A stretch of DNA of 64,000 nt from Kineobactrum salinum (GCF_010669285.1 NZ_CP048711.1:1488001-1552000); one strand, 5' to 3'; numbered from the stretch's first letter, positions 2,330 to 11,317 are shown. Numbers and translations: made by a program. The notes: generated by a model not told the origin, from the sequence alone.

Positions 2330-3145
2330 AAAACCTCTTGAACTCCCTAATATTATATGACCACCGGGTAGAACTGATTCGTAGCGATTAATTGCCATCA
2401 GGCCGAACGTATTTCAATAACCTAATTGAATTAATAGATTTCTCAACTGATGCTCGGAGTCAAAACCAAAGATCATAAACTGGCCAATCAAGACAAGATG
2501 ATAATAGGCCGCGACAACTCTAAACCTGAATCAATATTTCAACTACTTACACTATGAGTTTGGGTCAAATACGGTCCAATACAAAATAGTCATTATTAGT
2601 ATGATTCACGGATATAGCATGGCCCACTGGTTCTACTTAATCACGCTAATAAGCCCATTTCTGGCGGCTCGTTCCCGTAAGCTCCTTCATGAACCCGAAG
2701 CCTCCAGGAACTGCGTCTTCCACCTGGTGATTTGATTCGGGTGAACATCGAAACGCTCAGCGATCTCGCCATGGTCTGTTGCTCTGAGATCCTCATATTA
2801 AAGATGAATAGAGTTTATGAAAACTTGGTCTTCGCACTAAGGGGATTTCTCATCTAATGTGGAAAAAATCTCAGGCCTGGTGATTACAGAATATTACCTA
2901 GTACAGAATATTACCCAATAGAATATTACCCAACTAGAGTCAACTGAAGAATTATCCTGTAAGACGAAAATACAAAAACGACGAGTTCAGTATTCCAACT
3001 CACACTCAATACCGGCAAGCATCCAACTACCGAAGAGTCACTCAATGCCAACAGAGTTATTACCCCATGTAGTAGCACTCTGCGCTACAGGACTGATTTA
3101 GTTTCAATCTGGTGCATAATTCACTGACATTTTGGAGGCTTGACA
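2330..3145. other. Long AT-rich intergenic region with IS debris
   Basis: About 815 bases with no intact gene. It contains the orfA remnant listed separately and short near-repeats (agaatattac and close variants, three times around 2887-2932). The rest is AT-rich and shows no RNA-gene or terminator structure I can defend. The promoter of mmsA (leftward) and that of the hydrolase (rightward) must lie here. Confidence 0.5.
2690..2790 (-). pseudogene. IS3-family OrfA (transposase helix-turn-helix) remnant
   Basis: On the minus strand the stretch reads EIAERFDVHPNQITRWKTQF and then meets a stop after LEASG. This is the hallmark helix-turn-helix of IS3-family OrfA proteins (AERF-VHP-QI--WK). Only about 30 codons survive. 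The start, the rest of orfA and orfB are absent. It marks an old insertion, independent of the IS66 element to the left. Confidence 0.7.
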
Positions 3146-4033
3146 TTGGCCATTAACCCACCGCAGGAAAAAGTTTGGTTGAATTTCGATCAAAAGGCAC
3201 TCAATGCAGCATATGACCAACAGGTTTATGCGCCGAACCATGTTCAGATAATAAAAAGGATGGAGAAAAACAGCGTCCTTATGCGGCAGCGCATAGGCGA
3301 GCCACATACTTTCAGTTATGGGCCTTCTCCAATCGAAAAGTTGTTTTATTATCCTGCCTCTGAACCGGATTCACCGATCCATATCCATGTACATGGCGGT
3401 GCCTGGCGACAAAGGAAGGCAGAAAGCATGTTGTTTCCCGCAGAAGCTTTTGTCAAAGCCGGTATCGGTTTTGCCATTTTCGATTTTATATCAGTCGAGG
3501 AAACAAATGGCGACCTCAATCCTATGCTGACACAAATTTGTAGTGGACTGGCCTGGCTCGCAAAAAACGCAAGAACTCTGGGTGGTGATCCAGATCGCCT
3601 TTATCTATCAGGATTTTCTTCTGGGGCACACCTTGGCAGCGCAGCCATTGTGGCGGACTGGAATCCATTTGGTTTTGAAAAAATCCCTTACAAGGGTGCG
3701 GTACTGATCAGTGGGATGTATGATTTGCATCCGGTGAGACTGTCAAATCGTTCTGAGTATGTCAGGTTTACGGATGAGATCGTGGATATGATGAGTGCCC
3801 AACGGCATGTCGATAAATTCAATATCCCCGTCATTCTCTCGCATGGCAGTGACGAAACCCCTGAATTTAAACGTCAAACACGAGAATTTGCCGAGACCCT
3901 GAGGATCGCTGGCAAGCCCGTACAGTACCTTTCAATCGAAGGTTACAATCATTATGAATTAATGGAATCTTTAGGCAACCCCTACAGTCCGCTCGGCAGC
4001 GCTGCAATTGCACAAACTCGCGAAAACTCTTAG
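3146..4033 (+). CDS. Alpha/beta hydrolase of the esterase / kynurenine-formamidase-like type
   Basis: About 295 aa. The oxyanion-hole motif HVHGGAW lies near residue 80 and the nucleophile elbow is GFSSG (LSGFSSGAHLG, about residue 155). The acidic and His residues follow in the C-terminal third (HGSDETPEF, and NHYEL near the end). This layout is seen in bacterial arylformamidases and HSL/BD-FAE-type esterases. There is no signal peptide, so it is cytosolic. The start is chosen at TTG 3146 because GGAGG at 3134-3138 sits seven bases upstream. The in-frame TTG at 3140 is too close to that site. The substrate is unknown. It ends 22 bases before the convergent sugar-kinase gene and belongs to the AT-richer left segment. 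Confidence 0.75.
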   Translation: MAINPPQEKVWLNFDQKALNAAYDQQVYAPNHVQIIKRMEKNSVLMRQRIGEPHTFSYGPSPIEKLFYYPASEPDSPIHIHVHGGAWRQRKAESMLFPAEAFVKAGIGFAIFDFISVEETNGDLNPMLTQICSGLAWLAKNARTLGGDPDRLYLSGFSSGAHLGSAAIVADWNPFGFEKIPYKGAVLISGMYDLHPVRLSNRSEYVRFTDEIVDMMSAQRHVDKFNIPVILSHGSDETPEFKRQTREFAETLRIAGKPVQYLSIEGYNHYELMESLGNPYSPLGSAAIAQTRENS

Positions 4034-4039
4034 GCTCGG

Positions 4040-4057
4040 GAAGAGAAGGGCCTCTTC
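4040..4057. terminator. Short stem-loop between convergent genes
   Basis: GAAGAG (4040-4045) pairs with CTCTTC (4052-4057) around a 6-base loop. It lies in the narrow gap between the rightward hydrolase and the leftward kinase. There is no U-tract and the stem is short, so termination is only a guess. Confidence 0.3.
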
Positions 4058-5532
4058 AAGGGACGCGTCGGATCATCCGCTGGTAAATGGGTTTCAGCGC
4101 ATGGTAGGTCTCGAGGTACAGGGCCAGCAGTCTGTCGTAGCGCTCGCGACGGCCGGGATCGGGCCGGAACACCTGCTCCACCGTGACCATACGCCGCGCG
4201 GCCTGTGGCACCGATTCGAACAGCCCCACCCCCGCCCCGGCCAGGATCGCGGCACCGAGCACACCGGTGTCGGCAAAACACAGCCTGCGCAGTTCGATAT
4301 TCAGCACATCCGCACGAATCTGGCACCACAGCCCCGACTGACTGCCACCGCCCCCAGATACAGAAATGGATAGGAACGTCCGGCAGCCTCGGCCACACTG
4401 TCATACAACAGGCGAGCGGAACAGGCGACGCCTTCCAGCACCGCCAGCGCCATATCGCCGATGCCGGTGTCGGCCTCGATGCCGAGGAAGCTGCCGCGGC
4501 TGTAGGGGTCCCACAGCGGCGCCCGCTCGCCCTGCAGATGCGGCAGGAACAGTAGCCGTCCCTGGCTGCGGTCAACCGCCGCCGCCTCGGCCAGCACGGT
4601 ATCCACCGCCTGACCGACACATTCCGCAAACCAGCGCAGGGAATCGCCGCCGCTCTGGGTGGGGCCGGCATGAACATACCAGTCTGCCACCGGCAGGAAA
4701 CTGAGTACGCCTGCGGTCGCAACCCTGCGATCCGACACCAGTGTGATGATCTCGCTGGTCCCGCTGAAATAGGCGCCCTCGCCGATCCCGGCGACACCGG
4801 AGCCAAACATGTTGCTCCAGGCATCCATGGTGCCCGTGACCACCGGTACGCCGAGACCACGGCTGCGCTCCGGCAGCGTGAGGCCCAGCACCCGTTCCAT
4901 CGGCTGCAACGGGGGCAGGCGCCGGGCCGCACCGGGCACCAGCGCCAGCAGCGGCTCCAGGTAGACCCCGCACTGATCCACCAGTCCGAAGGAACTGACC
5001 GGATCACTGGCCACCTTGCCGGTCAGCTGCAACAGGCAGTAATCCTTGGGGGAAAGCACCCAGCGGGTCTGCTCCCACTCTGCCGGGGCGTGGGCCGCCA
5101 CCCAGGCCATCCGGGCCAGCGGATGACTGGCATCGATGGGCACCGGCGCGCCCCACCAGGCCTGCTTCTGCTCCGGGCTGAGCTGGCTGTCCAGGGTTTC
5201 CGCCTCCTGCGCGGCCCTGCCATCCTGCCAGACGATGGCCGGCAGCAGCGCCCGTCCCGCGGCATCGACGAAGACATGGGTATTGACCTGGCTGCACAGG
5301 CCCAGCGCGGCTATCGACAACTGGCTGCGGCCTTCGAGCAACTCGGCCAGAATGTCGTCGATCGCCGTCAGCCAGTCGGCCGCCGCCTGCTCAACGAAGC
5401 AGTGGCGCGAGCGGGCGGTGGGATAGCGCCGCGAGGCCTGGGCAAGCAGCTCGCCATCGGCGCCAAACAGCCCCCCTTTACCGCCGTGGTACCGACATCG
5501 ATTCCCAGCAGGTACTGCGCTGTCTCAGCCAT
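4056..5532 (-). CDS. FGGY-family carbohydrate kinase (xylulokinase-like), two single-base frameshifts
   Basis: The reading is split over three frames that join into one protein of about 490 aa. The N-terminal phosphate-binding loop is LLGIDVGTTAVKGG. The middle part holds WQDGRA, a substrate-site MDAWSNMFGSG region and the GERAPLWDP segment typical of FGGY kinases. The C-terminal part carries the ATP-site glycines (LGGGGSQS after repair) and CFADTGVLGAAILAG. Breaks fall in a six-G run (5471-5476) and a five-G run (4351-4355, minus-strand sense). Adding one G at each restores the family sequence, so sequencing error is more likely than decay. The family phosphorylates pentuloses, polyols or related sugars in the cytosol. 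The start ATG at 5532 overlaps the stop of the TrpA-like gene, which suggests translational coupling. Confidence 0.82.
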
Positions 5533-6343
5533 CCAGAGACTCCCGTACCGCGCGCAGGAACCCGCTCAGCACCTCCGGCCCCTGCTGGGCCAACTGCAGG
5601 CAACGGGAGCCGATCACCACACCATTGGCGCCCATCGCGACCGCCTCTGCCGCCTGCTGTGGTGTACTGATACCGAATCCCAGCAGAATCGGCTGGGCCA
5701 GTCCCCGGGCCCGCAACTGCTTTATATGCAGTGCATTGCGCGGATCCAGCATCTGCCGGGCGCCGGTGGGACCGGGGGCGGCCTGCAGCATCAGATAGGC
5801 CTCGGATGCGCGCGCCGCCTCCACGGCGGCCGGGTCCAGCTCCCAGTCGACGAACCGGACCTGGCGGATATCGTGGTGCCGGCTCACGGCCAGAATCTCG
5901 TCGCGCCGGGGGCAGGCGTCCAGGCCCAGCATCAGCAGACCATCGAGCAGTGGCAGCGCTGCGCACTGCAGAAAAGCATCCAGATCGATCGCCGTATAGC
6001 TCATGCAGAGCACGGCCGGCCCGCCGTCTATCGACCGCACGACCCCGGCTGTGGCGGCCAGGGCCGGGTAAATGTCGGGATTCGCAGCGCCCCGTGCCAT
6101 GGCATTGCGGACCGCCGCGCCATCCATGAAAGGATCGGCAGTGGGCAGGCCCAGCTCCACCACATCGACGCCGCAGTCGGCGTAGATCCGCAGCAGCTCC
6201 GGCGGCATCGCCGGATCGCCGACGGGGAAGTAGCAGGTCAGCAGCGGCCGGCCACTGGCGAGGCGCCAATCCAGCCGGTTGCGGCGGCTGTCCTGTTGTT
6301 CAGATGGCGTGTCTGAGATTTGCGAACAGTGCAGATATGACAT
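5525..6343 (-). CDS. TrpA-like TIM-barrel lyase (tryptophan synthase alpha-subunit homologue)
   Basis: About 272 aa. The TrpA pattern is clear: LLTCYFPVGDP at strand 1, then VVELGLPTADPFMDG. The glutamate of ELG and the aspartate of MDG correspond to the two catalytic acids. PTGAR follows, then the phosphate-binding end GFGISTPQQA and GVVIGSRCL. In TrpA these residues carry out retro-aldol release of glyceraldehyde 3-phosphate from indole-glycerol phosphate. No trpB, trpC or trpF is present. The gene sits between a TonB receptor and an FGGY kinase, overlapping the kinase start by 8 bases. I infer a catabolic aldolase/lyase acting on a phosphorylated sugar derivative rather than tryptophan synthesis. 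The start is uncertain: ATG 6343 is taken because the longer frame runs into the receptor gene. Confidence 0.75.
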   Translation of the reverse strand: MSYLHCSQISDTPSEQQDSRRNRLDWRLASGRPLLTCYFPVGDPAMPPELLRIYADCGVDVVELGLPTADPFMDGAAVRNAMARGAANPDIYPALAATAGVVRSIDGGPAVLCMSYTAIDLDAFLQCAALPLLDGLLMLGLDACPRRDEILAVSRHHDIRQVRFVDWELDPAAVEAARASEAYLMLQAAPGPTGARQMLDPRNALHIKQLRARGLAQPILLGFGISTPQQAAEAVAMGANGVVIGSRCLQLAQQGPEVLSGFLRAVRESLDG

Positions 6344-6447
6344 CACGAAAGCGGACTCACAAGTTTGTTGCAGGGAGTCAGGAAACGACACTGGCCCGTC
6401 GATTCCTGCGGCATGCTCCCGCCCATCGCGGGACAGCGGGCCGACCG

Positions 6448-8706
6448 TCAGAACATGCGTTTTACCGACAGCGACCATTCCCGCGGCCGGGCATAGACGC
6501 CTTCCACATAGCCAAAGCCGTTGAACTCGTTGTTGCCGGTAATCAGGTAGCTACGGTCCGATAGATTGCGCACCTGCAAGGCCAGCTGCCAGGTTTCCGC
6601 CGCGGTGGTATAGGTGACGCCGGCATTGAACAGATGCAGTGCCTGCTGGGCAATGGCCTCGGTGTTGGCCGCATCGTTGTACACTTTATCGCGATAGCTC
6701 CAGTCGCCGCGCAGGGTGAGTTCGCCAAGATCCCCGACAGACGCCGTGTAGGCCAGCGAGCCCGACAGTGACCACTCGGGGGAATTGACGAAACTGTCGC
6801 CCTCATCAATGCCCTGGGCGGGGTCAAAGTCATTGTCGAAATCGGTGTACTGGGTGTCGAGATAGCCCAGGCCAAACTGTAACTCCAGCGCCGGCGTCAG
6901 CAGTAGTCCAAGTTCCAGTTCGCCACCGTAAACCTCCCCCGCTGCAGCGTTGCCTGTACCCGGCGCCACCACATCGATGATCTTCACCTGGATATCGTCG
7001 TAGTCGGTGTAGAAAATCGCGCTTTCCAGCCGGATGGTATCCGCGCTGTTGCTCCATTTCGCCCCCAGTTCATACACCTGCACCTGCTCCGGGTCGAAGG
7101 AGCCCGGCACTTCCCGCGGTGGAAATACGCGCTGGTTGAAACCGCCACTCTTGAAACCCTCGGAATAGGAGATATAGGTCATCAACCGGTCGGTCCAGTG
7201 GTAGTCCAGGCCAGCGGTCACCGAGAAGTCATCGAAGTCCTGGCTGTATTCCTGGAACGGCAGGATACGCTGGCCGTCGGTGAACCCCGCGCCGCCAAAC
7301 AGCGGTTGGGTAAACTCATTGAACAGCACCTGCTGGTCCGGTGTAAAACGCTTGGTCTCCTCGGTATAGCGGGCCCCGACATTGAGCCTGAGACGGTCGC
7401 TGAGATCATAGGAGGAATGGGCGAACAGCGCCCAGCTGTCGCTGTCGATGGCGCCACCACTCTGGATATCCAGCACTGCGGTGCGCACCAGGTTCAGGTT
7501 GTCACCGTCTTCCTGGAAATAATAGGCGCCCAGCAACCAGTCCAGCCGCTCATCCAGCGCCACGCCACTGAACTGGAATTCCTGGCTGAACTGGTCGTGC
7601 TCCATGTCGTCGAAGGTTTCCACAATAACGAAGGGCGAGTTGTCCGAATCGCGTCCAAACTGGCTGTCAAAACCCCGTTGCGCGGTGATGGACTTGAGGC
7701 TGAAGGCCTCGAAATCGTAGTTGAGCGTGAGCGACACACCGTAGACATCCAGGTCTGAGCGGGCGAGCTCATTGCGCCCCTGCGAAGTCGCGAATTTGCC
7801 GCCGACCAGGTAGCGCGCATCGTAGGGTTGCACGCCCAAAAAAGGTGCTATCACTCCGTTGAAGGGCGCGAAGGTCGGCGCCCCCGCCTCCGGGTTGAAG
7901 TCCAGGATTTTCTGCGCCATCGCCTGTTCGCGCCGGTAGGTGGCATCGGCCGCGAAGATCATGGAGAAATTCTCGGTGGGATGAAAATCCACTATCAGAC
8001 TGCCCAGTTGAGCATCGGTATCGCCCAGGTCCGGTCCACCGCCCAGATTCTCGACGTAGCCATCCTGATTCAGGTTGGCATAGGCAAGCCTGACCGCCAG
8101 GGTATCCGAGAGTGGCAGATCCACCGAAGCCTTGAAATCCCTGCGCTGATCGGTACCCAGTTTGAGTTCCACACTGCCGCCCAGTTCTGCCCCGGGTTTG
8201 CGGGAAATCACATTGATCGCACCGCCGATGGTGTTCTTGCCAAACAACGTACCCTGGGGGCCTCGCAATACTTCCACCTGCTCCACATCGGCCAGTTCCA
8301 GCACCCCACCCACGGAGCGCGCAATATAGACGCCATCGAGATAGAGGCCGACCCCCGGGTCGGTCACCAGCGCGAAGTCCGTCTGGCCGATGCCGCGAAT
8401 GAAAATCGATGCGGCCGACTTGCTGCCCGATATCGGCGCGGAGGAATCAAACACCAGATTCGGCGTAGCCTCGGCGATCTGGGAGATATTGCTGATCTGG
8501 CGCGCCGCGAGTTCGTTGGCGGTGAATGCCGTTACTGAAACCGGCGTACTTTGCAGGCTCTCGGCCCTGCGCCGCGCGGTTACCACGACCTCCTCCAGCG
8601 TCGCCCCGGGCTGAGCGGCCACTGCGTTGACGCAGAGGCCGCTGACTCCCAGGCCGGTGACGCAGGAGAGGAATGCCGAAATTGCCCTGCCGTTGCCCTT
8701 TGCCAT
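6448..8706 (-). CDS. TonB-dependent outer-membrane receptor
   Basis: 752 aa. A signal peptide ends near VAAQPG. It is followed by the TonB-box-like EEVVVTARRR, a plug domain (TPVSVTAF, LDGVYIARS, VEVLRGPQGTLFGKNT, GGAINVISRKP) and a long beta-barrel that ends in aromatic Phe (SVKRMF). It imports a bulky or scarce ligand across the outer membrane using TonB-ExbBD energy. Receptors with the RGPQGTLFG plug are common in marine proteobacteria and often serve non-siderophore substrates. It heads an operon-like run with the TrpA-like lyase and the sugar kinase, and lies 134 bases downstream of an AraC regulator on the same strand. The ligand may therefore be a glycoside or sugar-like compound. Confidence 0.93.
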   Translation of the reverse strand: MAKGNGRAISAFLSCVTGLGVSGLCVNAVAAQPGATLEEVVVTARRRAESLQSTPVSVTAFTANELAARQISNISQIAEATPNLVFDSSAPISGSKSAASIFIRGIGQTDFALVTDPGVGLYLDGVYIARSVGGVLELADVEQVEVLRGPQGTLFGKNTIGGAINVISRKPGAELGGSVELKLGTDQRRDFKASVDLPLSDTLAVRLAYANLNQDGYVENLGGGPDLGDTDAQLGSLIVDFHPTENFSMIFAADATYRREQAMAQKILDFNPEAGAPTFAPFNGVIAPFLGVQPYDARYLVGGKFATSQGRNELARSDLDVYGVSLTLNYDFEAFSLKSITAQRGFDSQFGRDSDNSPFVIVETFDDMEHDQFSQEFQFSGVALDERLDWLLGAYYFQEDGDNLNLVRTAVLDIQSGGAIDSDSWALFAHSSYDLSDRLRLNVGARYTEETKRFTPDQQVLFNEFTQPLFGGAGFTDGQRILPFQEYSQDFDDFSVTAGLDYHWTDRLMTYISYSEGFKSGGFNQRVFPPREVPGSFDPEQVQVYELGAKWSNSADTIRLESAIFYTDYDDIQVKIIDVVAPGTGNAAAGEVYGGELELGLLLTPALELQFGLGYLDTQYTDFDNDFDPAQGIDEGDSFVNSPEWSLSGSLAYTASVGDLGELTLRGDWSYRDKVYNDAANTEAIAQQALHLFNAGVTYTTAAETWQLALQVRNLSDRSYLITGNNEFNGFGYVEGVYARPREWSLSVKRMF

Positions 8707-8840: not shown

Positions 8841-9830
8841 TCAGCGACGCCGGGTTGCAGAAGGCTTCTCGCCAAACCTCTGGGCGTAGTCTCTCGCGAA
8901 TCGGCCCATATGGGAGAAACCCCATTTACAGGCAATCTCGGTGATGGTGGTCGAGGAGGACGAGTGTGTCAGTTCCTGCCTGACCTTCTCCAGCCGCAGG
9001 TTGCGGACATAGGCGTACGGCGTTACGCCCACAAAACGCTTGAAGGCGTAGAACAGCGCCCGCTCGGTGACACCCGCGGCCAGCGCCAGCTCCTCCACCC
9101 GGATGTCACCCTGCAGGTGGGCATGGATGTAGTCCCGCGCCTTGACCACATAGTGCGGCAGCACGGGATTGCGCTGGGCCACCAGAGCGTCGGTGTAATT
9201 GTGCGGCTGACAGGTCAGCAACAGATTGAACAGGGTTTTTTCGAGAGAGGAGACACCGGGACCAAAGCCGAGCACCGGGCTGTTCTCCCGCGCCTGGTTG
9301 ACCAGGTAACTGACATATTCACTGATCGCGCGGCCGGAAGGCGAGGCCAGATCGATCAGCGGGCTGAACTCCAGCGGCTGTGTCGGCACACAGCCAATCG
9401 CCTCGGCAAGGCAGCCCTCCAGCTTGCGCCGGTCGATCTTTATCATCACCTCCGCGCAATCCGACGACCAACGCGATCTGACAGGCTTCTCCGGTGACAG
9501 CAGGGCCGCCATACCGGGCCGGTTGATATAGTCCTGATCGCCGTATTGCAGCCGCACCCTGCCGGCCAGCGGCAGCTCCAGCATATAGAACTCTTCGAAC
9601 GGGCCTATGTTGATGGCGACGTCGGCGCCGTACTGCAGGAAGTTCAGCGAGGTGTCGCGCAGCGCAAACCGGTGGTAGCGGGCATTGACCTGGCTGGCGC
9701 GGTCGTTGAGCAGCAGCTTGTGGGGGCAATAGGCACTGGCGACATTGTCGACCACCTCATCCAGGCGGGTAGAGGCAAAAACACTGTATTTTTCAAGAGG
9801 TGATGTCACAGCGTTCTGAAACACAGTCAT
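8841..9830 (-). CDS. AraC-family transcriptional regulator
   Basis: 329 aa. The N-terminal half is an AraC-binding-2 type sensor domain, and the C-terminal 100 residues form the double helix-turn-helix (IRVEELALAAGVTERALFYA, then ITEIACKWGFSHMGRFARDY). The ATG has GGAGG only two bases away. An in-frame GTG two codons later is better spaced, so the exact start is open. It lies just upstream of the TonB receptor, TrpA-like and kinase genes and is the obvious candidate activator of that locus. It belongs to the same subfamily as the regulator at 60391-61494. Confidence 0.9.
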   Translation of the reverse strand: MTVFQNAVTSPLEKYSVFASTRLDEVVDNVASAYCPHKLLLNDRASQVNARYHRFALRDTSLNFLQYGADVAINIGPFEEFYMLELPLAGRVRLQYGDQDYINRPGMAALLSPEKPVRSRWSSDCAEVMIKIDRRKLEGCLAEAIGCVPTQPLEFSPLIDLASPSGRAISEYVSYLVNQARENSPVLGFGPGVSSLEKTLFNLLLTCQPHNYTDALVAQRNPVLPHYVVKARDYIHAHLQGDIRVEELALAAGVTERALFYAFKRFVGVTPYAYVRNLRLEKVRQELTHSSSSTTITEIACKWGFSHMGRFARDYAQRFGEKPSATRRR

Positions 9831-9905: not shown

Positions 9906-10973
9906 CTATTCCCCGGTATAGGCCTGCGCCCCCTTTTCCGGTCTCAGCTCCGGGGCCCGGCCAGTTTGGCCCTGGCCAGGTCCTGGCAGCGGCCAACCGT
10001 CAAACAGGTTCATGTGAATCAGGATAACGGGGAAGGTAATCGACAGCATCGCATTGGCCAACCACAATTCAGCGGCGTAGGTGGGGCCTCCGGACGACTG
10101 GCCGGGGGCCATCAGCGCCATCGCCTGCCCGTAAGCCAGATAGAGTACTAGGCCCGCCAGCGAACTGGCAACCAGCAAGGCCAGTCCACGCAATGGCTGC
10201 GGTCGATGGCTGAGGAAACGGCCGCCCGCCACATCTGTCACCATGAATACGCCAAACATGAAGGCGACCGGTCCCGCCACCATGAAGGCGACGACATCCA
10301 CACCCACAAGACCGGTGAACGTCCCCATCAGCAGTCCGGCCAGCAACAGCACGGCCACCGCCGTGATCAATCCTGTCCAGGGCTGCCCGAGCCTGTGCGC
10401 AACCGTCAGCGGCATTTGTTCAAACAGGCTCAACGCAAATATGACTCCCAGCGTGGTAATACAGAAGACAATACAATCCCAGGCCGGAAACCAGCCCTCG
10501 AAACCCGCCCCTGCGGGACCAAAGGCGGTGAAATCGAACAGCAGTGGATACAACAGTGCCGCGATGACATAGGCCAGGGTCCACAGCAATAGTCCGGTAC
10601 GCCAGCCACCCAATTTTGCCGCAGTAGCGGGCCAGCCGGCGAATACCAGGGCAAGCCACATCATCACTACAACGCCGAAGATGACGAACATCACCGCGAC
10701 AATGGAGGGGGTCGCCAGTTCGCCCTGCACAGCCACCAGTACCGTCCCTGCTACAACGGCCCCGGCCAGCGTGGCCACAGCGAGCAAGCGCAAACCGGTG
10801 CGGGGCTGCTGCCGCGGAGCGTCCCCACCACAGAAGATATTCAGCATCACCATCATCGGTATCGCGGCGATCGACAGGAAACCCGCCCAGCGGTTGAAGA
10901 AATCCTGCCCCAGCAGGGCGATGATCGCGAACGAAGCAGCAATGACAAACGCAGCGTGTGCCAGATAGCGCAT
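9906..10973 (-). CDS. Multi-pass inner-membrane protein, unknown function
   Basis: About 355 aa with roughly ten hydrophobic helices spread over the whole length and short charged loops. I do not recognise a family. There is a cysteine in NIFCGGD and a periplasm-like loop FTAFGPAGAGFEGWFPAWD. The start is ATG 10973 (MRYLAHAAFVIA). The open frame extends to 11231 but that part is hydrophilic and falls in the divergent promoter region. The gene lies upstream of the AraC regulator on the same strand, and is divergent from the serine hydrolase at 11318. A transport or membrane-enzyme role is possible but unsupported. Confidence 0.7.
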   Translation of the reverse strand: MRYLAHAAFVIAASFAIIALLGQDFFNRWAGFLSIAAIPMMVMLNIFCGGDAPRQQPRTGLRLLAVATLAGAVVAGTVLVAVQGELATPSIVAVMFVIFGVVVMMWLALVFAGWPATAAKLGGWRTGLLLWTLAYVIAALLYPLLFDFTAFGPAGAGFEGWFPAWDCIVFCITTLGVIFALSLFEQMPLTVAHRLGQPWTGLITAVAVLLLAGLLMGTFTGLVGVDVVAFMVAGPVAFMFGVFMVTDVAGGRFLSHRPQPLRGLALLVASSLAGLVLYLAYGQAMALMAPGQSSGGPTYAAELWLANAMLSITFPVILIHMNLFDGWPLPGPGQGQTGRAPELRPEKGAQAYTGE

Positions 10974-11317
10974 GACGACTCTCAGTTTACAGACGTACCA
11001 GACTCCGATACTGGTAGAACTTCGATGCCACCACAACAGCCGCGCCGTCGTGTCCCTCAACTGCTTGCGGTATCCGGACAGGATGGCGGTATCCGGATAC
11101 CCGTCGTGCCCGTTGGCAGACCGGATACCGGCTCCGGGACAGGCCCCTCGCCACGCCGGCCGCCGGACGCTGACAGGAGGCAATAATCCACATGCAGGGG
11201 GCCGAATGTGCAGATTCCACCGGATCTGCACACTCCGGAGGCGTATCGGCCTACCAGTACCGCGCCGGCCGCAGCTACCATCAGTCCCTGAGAATTAAAC
11301 TCCGGGGGCAGAAAAAC
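10974..11317. other. Divergent intergenic region (promoters expected)
   Basis: About 340 bases between the leftward membrane-protein gene and the rightward serine hydrolase. It must carry both promoters. I see no clear consensus -35/-10 pair and no strong palindrome. Both start codons that extend open frames into it give low-complexity, non-family peptides. Confidence 0.4.

Follow-up and report, generated by a model that had tools for sequence, protein, structure and literature searches.

To our knowledge, TrpA is known almost solely from tryptophan biosynthesis and, in plants, from indole biosynthesis. The described systems closest to the locus reported here, a five-gene cassette of Kineobactrum salinum that includes a TrpA-like gene, are TrpA itself (TIGR00262), the TrpB-free TrpA homologues maize BX1 and IGL, the XylB branch of the FGGY kinases, and TonB-linked catabolism of lignin-derived aromatics (for example, with the TonB-dependent receptor of PMC6874591). 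The cassette lyase shares with TrpA the fold, the E49/D60 acid-base pair, the loop-6 motif G-x-T-G, and the phosphate site G213/G234/S235 (Escherichia coli numbering), but it falls under the equivalog cut-off, has no trpB, has lost D130, Y175, and F54, and is tied to a kinase. It likewise resembles BX1/IGL, with 1tjr as the best PDB match by structure and 1rd5 and 1tjr by sequence, but is bacterial, sits in an uptake/catabolic cassette, and is without the BX1 active-site residues Y170 and V172. The cassette kinases have the FGGY_N and FGGY_C domains of the XylB branch and XylB as their nearest model, but score 241-292 bits against a cut-off of 380 and form a clade of their own. As in the TonB-linked lignin systems, a TonB receptor is dedicated to a small catabolic locus, and the membrane-protein family of the cassette is also found in a 4-oxalomesaconate/LigK-type cluster (L109), whereas the cassette has no ring-cleaving or demethylating enzyme; its tie to aromatics rests on this one distant membrane-protein homologue.

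The cassette lies in a window of 64 kb, which is the whole stretch of DNA analyzed (bases 1,488,001-1,552,000 of the single-contig 4.65-Mb genome, with positions counted from the first base of the stretch). It looks like an undescribed catabolic route, and our searches of open-licence papers turned up no description of an FGGY kinase gene coupled to a TrpA-like one. Judging from the sequence, we see about an even chance that it is a small catabolic operon in which an imported compound would be phosphorylated and then undergo TrpA-type retro-aldol cleavage to glyceraldehyde 3-phosphate. Were this true, the TrpA retro-aldol reaction would have moved from tryptophan biosynthesis into catabolism, in a bacterial clade tied to a sugar-type kinase. 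The features are as follows.

9906..10973, minus strand: multi-pass inner-membrane protein (355 amino acids) of an undescribed family, probable transporter and the cassette's first gene
8841..9830, minus strand: AraC-family regulator (AraC_binding_2 and HTH_18)
6448..8706, minus strand: TonB-dependent outer-membrane receptor (plug and barrel domains)
5525..6343, minus strand: TrpA-like lyase (272 amino acids), matching PF00290, with E63 and D74 kept and no TrpB partner
5532-4056, minus strand: FGGY kinase as a whole, in three segments in three frames
5471..5532, minus strand: FGGY kinase 5' segment, first frame, lost at the G6 run 5471-5476 (from stop-to-stop frames and alignment to the kinase of locus L095)
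4351..5470, minus strand: FGGY kinase main segment, second frame, lost at the G5 run 4351-4355 (FGGY_N 92 bits, FGGY_C 55 bits)
4056..4350, minus strand: FGGY kinase 3' segment, third frame up to the stop (FGGY_C profile positions 152-196, 37 bits)

The order of transcription on the minus strand is membrane protein, AraC regulator, TonB receptor, TrpA-like gene, and FGGY kinase. The next gene, at 3140-4033, is convergent, and therefore the gene set ends at the kinase. The initial annotation had placed the TrpA-like gene between the receptor and the kinase with an overlap of 8 bases, as is seen in the sequence, where ATGGCTGA holds both the kinase ATG (5532) and the lyase stop codon. It had also rightly counted the AraC regulator and the unrecognized membrane protein as part of the locus, but its extent of 4056-8706 was too small, as with these two genes the cassette reaches about 10973. 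The membrane-protein open reading frame runs upstream as far as 11231, and its start was set by homology.

The five-gene cassette is more than a chance arrangement, because all five genes are present again in each of two other genomes. In a Pseudomonadales metagenome-assembled genome (MAG; G536, contig JAIPFG010000037, locus L095, which is the same as L099), genes for the TonB receptor, AraC regulator, membrane protein, lyase, and kinase are found together with one for glyceraldehyde-3-phosphate dehydrogenase (GAPDH). The kinase is intact there, and the lyase and kinase overlap by 14 bases. The GAPDH gene lies 67 bases downstream of the kinase and encodes a type I enzyme (TIGR01534, 410.4 bits, above the cut-off of 367.2; below the erythrose-4-phosphate dehydrogenase cut-offs). 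A GAPDH gene in this place would be expected if the product were glyceraldehyde 3-phosphate. In an Exilibacterium MAG (G800), the kinase, TonB receptor, AraC regulator, and membrane protein are together (L103). The search for TrpA-like/FGGY pairs that had been proposed at the outset thus found them coupled in a second genome and co-occurring in a third. The window TonB receptor is 48% identical to the cassette receptors and 26-33% identical to two control receptors; identities to the other cassettes are 44-46% for the AraC regulator, 38-39% for the membrane protein, and 38-42% for the lyase, and the window kinase fragment is 42-43% identical to the other cassette kinases (43% for that of L095). 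Of the 391 genomes in the order sample, 4 have the membrane protein and the lyase clade was found in 2, both within those 4, an overlap with a chance of about 6/76,245 by simple counting.

The window lyase matches PF00290 with 84 bits (E 8e-24; cut-off 27), and the three lyases score 84.0, 100.0, and 91.8 bits against the TrpA equivalog TIGR00262, all under its cut-off of 102.35. They form one clade (support 100/99) apart from 32 TrpAs, including maize 1rd5; the branches are long and the depth of the split is uncertain. By this measure the TrpA-like protein lies outside ordinary TrpA, in a clade of its own with two homologues. An ordinary trpA of the same genome is found at 4,412,222 with trpB adjoining, so the window gene is not its tryptophan gene; G536 also has an ordinary trpBA elsewhere. 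The initial annotation had called for a TrpA tree and had considered that the gene might group inside ordinary TrpA or be the only trpA of the genome, and neither is the case. Its statement that no TrpB lies beside the gene was borne out as well: tblastn with E. coli TrpB found no TrpB-like gene in the window, L095, L098, or L103. There is hardly any chance, in our estimation, that the gene is an ordinary second TrpA that came to lie beside a catabolic cluster by accident. Such a gene would also have the TrpA fold and a score above the PF00290 cut-off, but this one is under the TIGR00262 cut-off in three genomes, is set apart in the tree, has no trpB, and lacks D130 as well as most of loop 105-108, and its coupling to the kinase is conserved.

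Genomes related at the family and order level have ordinary trpA; the second lyase was identified as a divergent second copy in G536 that matches the window lyase at 150 bits, with ordinary TrpAs at 78 bits or less, and the third was found in the Exilibacterium MAG by a two-sequence profile. A single-sequence scan of 84,980 genomes gave no match, and the scan with the two-sequence profile matched only L098 and L099, with patterns so narrow that absence elsewhere is unproven. No further lyase was found in the phylum sample (398 genomes), and viral contigs, phages, and plasmids held no relative other than ordinary phage trpA. A single-protein search of the class sample (369 genomes, E<=1e-19) gave three extra matches, all weak (73-77 bits). 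Two of these group with ordinary TrpAs in the tree, and the third (L033), whose place in the tree is unsure, has trpB adjoining. Second copies of ordinary TrpA within the order were linked to trpB where this was checked, or were weak partial matches.

We compared residues of the three lyases with those of 84 canonical TrpAs, using E. coli numbering. Window residues E63 and D74 correspond to TrpA E49 and D60, both of which are needed for retro-aldol cleavage (PMC12930369), and Glu and Asp are found here in all three lyases. The phosphate-site residues G184, G213, G234, and S235 correspond to window G194, G224, G245, and S246, so the initial claim that both catalytic acids and the phosphate-binding site are retained was correct. 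Altogether, E49, D60, G181, T183, G184, G213, G234, and S235 are common to the three lyases, which also have new invariants in C21, P24, Q177, R186, and C237. Changes relative to TrpA are concentrated elsewhere. D130 and Y175, each present in 84/84 canonical TrpAs, are replaced in all three lyases, the latter by M/M/F; the position of V/L177 is Gln in all three; and F54 is lost. TrpA N104 and F107 have been placed at the TrpA-TrpB interface, with N104 hydrogen bonded to D130 (PMC8187860). In all three lyases, the TrpB-contacting loop that follows Y102 is largely missing: residues 107-108 are absent from all of them and 105-108 from two, and N104 is retained only in the L095 lyase. This residue pattern indicates that the lyases keep the catalytic machinery and the grip on phosphate, with changes in the indole pocket and in part of the TrpB interface. 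The clade would offer a natural TrpB-free TrpA for the study of how TrpA activity came to be independent of TrpB.

The predicted structure of the lyase is a TrpA barrel (predicted local distance difference test score [pLDDT], 81). Its best structural match is BX1 (1tjr, Z 29.2), and Z-scores to TrpA and BX1 entries range over 26.5-29, with many TrpA entries tied with BX1. It might be argued from this that the protein cleaves indole-3-glycerol phosphate on its own, as maize BX1 does, with the kinase phosphorylating imported indole-glycerol or with indole made as a signal. The top PDB matches by both structure and sequence are indeed BX1 and its maize homologue, and the protein is TrpB-free with its catalytic acids kept. 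However, BX1 Y170 and V172, which are part of the published active-site cluster and equivalent to E. coli Y175 and L177 (PMC12930369), are replaced by M/M/F and Q, the near tie of BX1 with bacterial TrpAs makes the match unspecific, and the kinase clade resembles XylB, its members elsewhere accompanying ribose-type transporters. We give this explanation a slight chance.

It is also possible that the TrpA-derived barrel is no longer a lyase and instead isomerizes, epimerizes, or rearranges a sugar phosphate made by the kinase. FGGY kinases often act alongside isomerases and epimerases, which counts in its favor, as do the replacement of Y175 by M/M/F and of position 177 by Gln in all three proteins and distant profile matches to other phosphate barrels, among them those of thiamin-phosphate synthase and triose-phosphate isomerase. 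Set against these, E49, D60, and the loop-6 residues T183 and G184 are invariant in all three proteins, and the GAPDH gene adjoining one copy fits a glyceraldehyde 3-phosphate product. We give the loss of lyase activity a modest chance.

As a separate observation on the canonical TrpAs, E. coli position 60 is Glu and not the catalytic Asp60 in 24 of the 84, including the organism's own trpA (G000, L001). Published changes to Asn, Ala, and Tyr at this position abolish activity (PMC12930369), and the natural Glu60 variant is therefore of interest.

The FGGY kinase had been taken to be one gene at first, but it is not one open frame, and its two breaks had been missed. The window kinase matches the intact L095 kinase in three frames, with breaks at G6 5471-5476 and G5 4351-4355. 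By tblastn, its 3' segment, in frame -3, corresponds to L095 kinase residues 402-487, and a codon-usage scan independently located the second break, with its junction at 4352. The pattern fits a single base being absent from each of the two G runs. The frameshift assessment covered the window and 220 kb sampled from the genome, and the codon-usage scan gave a noisy list of 39 candidates. An apparent frameshift was found in a potassium-channel/TrkA gene of the same assembly (L123:3361), with TrkA domains matching in both frames, and probable ones in an M23 peptidase gene and a major facilitator superfamily gene (L127:14401 and L119:18642), with a Pfam match on one side only. This suggests homopolymer errors in the assembly, which would be expected to break other genes too. 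Because other genes of the same assembly show apparent frame breaks, sequencing error is the more likely cause of the kinase frameshifts than decay. Alternatively, the locus could be decaying in this organism, the kinase being a true pseudogene and the lyase a leftover. Two frameshifts within one gene would be in keeping with this, as would the lack of a close homologue among sampled genomes of the same family; but both breaks are at G runs in an assembly with apparent frameshifts in other genes, all three kinase segments are still conserved, and the other four cassette genes are intact. Decay has, in our view, a small chance.

FGGY_N and FGGY_C domains are present in the cassette kinases, split over three frames in the window. 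XylB is their closest NCBIfam model and E. coli XylB (2itm) their closest PDB entry, but the two intact cassette kinases score 291.8 and 241.3 bits against XylB TIGR01312, under the cut-off of 380.25. Identities as AI-2 kinase (LsrK) and glycerol kinase were rejected, with scores well under the cut-off. The kinase clade (support 99/98) bears the substrate-site signature QVN[TS]HVF and is set apart from two further FGGY kinases that the same MAG encodes, one GlpK-like and one XylB-like; the latter has the motif QMHGATLLD in place of this signature. The window kinase is not clearly nearer to the cassette kinases than to clade members of other Proteobacteria (65/74). Kinases of the QVN[TS]HVF clade adjoin ribose-type ATP-binding cassette transporters in Rhizobium and two more proteobacterial genomes (L110:8902-10455, L131:4245-5750, and L132:9204-10667), which favors a sugar- or polyol-like substrate for the kinase. 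In the stretches read around the clade kinases of Rhizobium and other Proteobacteria there was no TrpA-like gene, and these neighborhoods offered neither a substrate clue nor an alternative lyase. The Rhizobium kinase is full length in BG6 (L110:8902-10455), and its frame ends early in BG7 (L111:8902-10083), possibly through an assembly frameshift.

Returning to the proposed operon, the TonB receptor would bring a scarce or bulky compound across the outer membrane, as its family suggests, transport through the inner membrane, of the compound itself or of a product of its breakdown, would probably fall to the membrane protein, and the AraC protein may sense the compound. The FGGY kinase would then phosphorylate a terminal hydroxyl of a glycerol-, polyol-, or sugar-like part; the family is known, and the substrate is predicted. 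Conserved residues and the adjacent GAPDH gene suggest that the TrpA-like enzyme would then act on the phosphorylated product in a TrpA-type retro-aldol cleavage with general acid-base catalysis. In this reaction, E63 (TrpA E49) would donate a proton to the leaving carbon and accept that of the carbinol, and D74 (TrpA D60) would deprotonate the leaving group. Cleavage would yield a released fragment and glyceraldehyde 3-phosphate, or a close triose phosphate, for entry into glycolysis. Tentatively, and at less than even chances, this may be a new pathway for an imported compound with a C-linked glycerol or polyol, such as a lignin aryl-glycerol: the FGGY kinase would activate it as its phosphate, and retro-aldol cleavage by the TrpB-free TrpA relative would set free glyceraldehyde 3-phosphate and the aromatic or other fragment. 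Aryl-glycerol is possible as a substrate and attractive because its phosphate resembles indole-3-glycerol phosphate and because a membrane-protein relative lies in an aromatic cluster; this should be taken as a lead, not as evidence. Indole-glycerol appears less likely, because the indole-pocket residues are changed. The initial annotation had suggested a kinase-then-lyase route for a glycoside or C-linked sugar compound, by way of a phosphorylated aryl- or alkyl-sugar; the gene coupling, the kept catalytic residues, and the GAPDH gene support this in part, but no data pointed to an aryl or C-linked sugar.

Several observations weigh against the proposed operon. The G800 lyase is outside the operon, alone on another contig (L098), and the GAPDH gene is present in only 1/3 loci, with additional GAPDH paralogues in G536. 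The loop-2 residues D56 and P57 are retained, so some of the TrpB interface remains, and the loss of Y175, which lines the TrpA pocket, means that the reaction may differ from that of TrpA. In other Proteobacteria the kinase clade occurs without the lyase nearby, so the kinase is not everywhere dependent on the lyase. Finally, the pathway could be dead in this organism, as its kinase carries two frameshifts. The lyase and kinase are amenable to a two-enzyme assay.

The membrane protein, a probable transporter, had no match in Pfam, NCBIfam, or PADLOC and no PDB relative at E<=10, and its model (pLDDT 45) was too low for a fold search. Its family, which is without a Pfam or NCBIfam model, recurs in other, unrelated catabolic clusters: one relative lies in the 4-oxalomesaconate/LigK-type cluster mentioned above, which is of the protocatechuate/gallate type (L109:9472-10566), and another beside a TauD/monooxygenase cluster (L108:9082-10233). 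Klebsiella plasmids also carry partial relatives, which lie between insertion sequences in the vicinity of ars genes (L112 and L113, about 10037-10810). The AraC regulator has weak similarity to AndR (156 versus a cut-off of 350). Upstream of the membrane-protein gene, at window positions 11204-11235, lies a 12-base inverted repeat with an 8-base gap, a possible regulator site.

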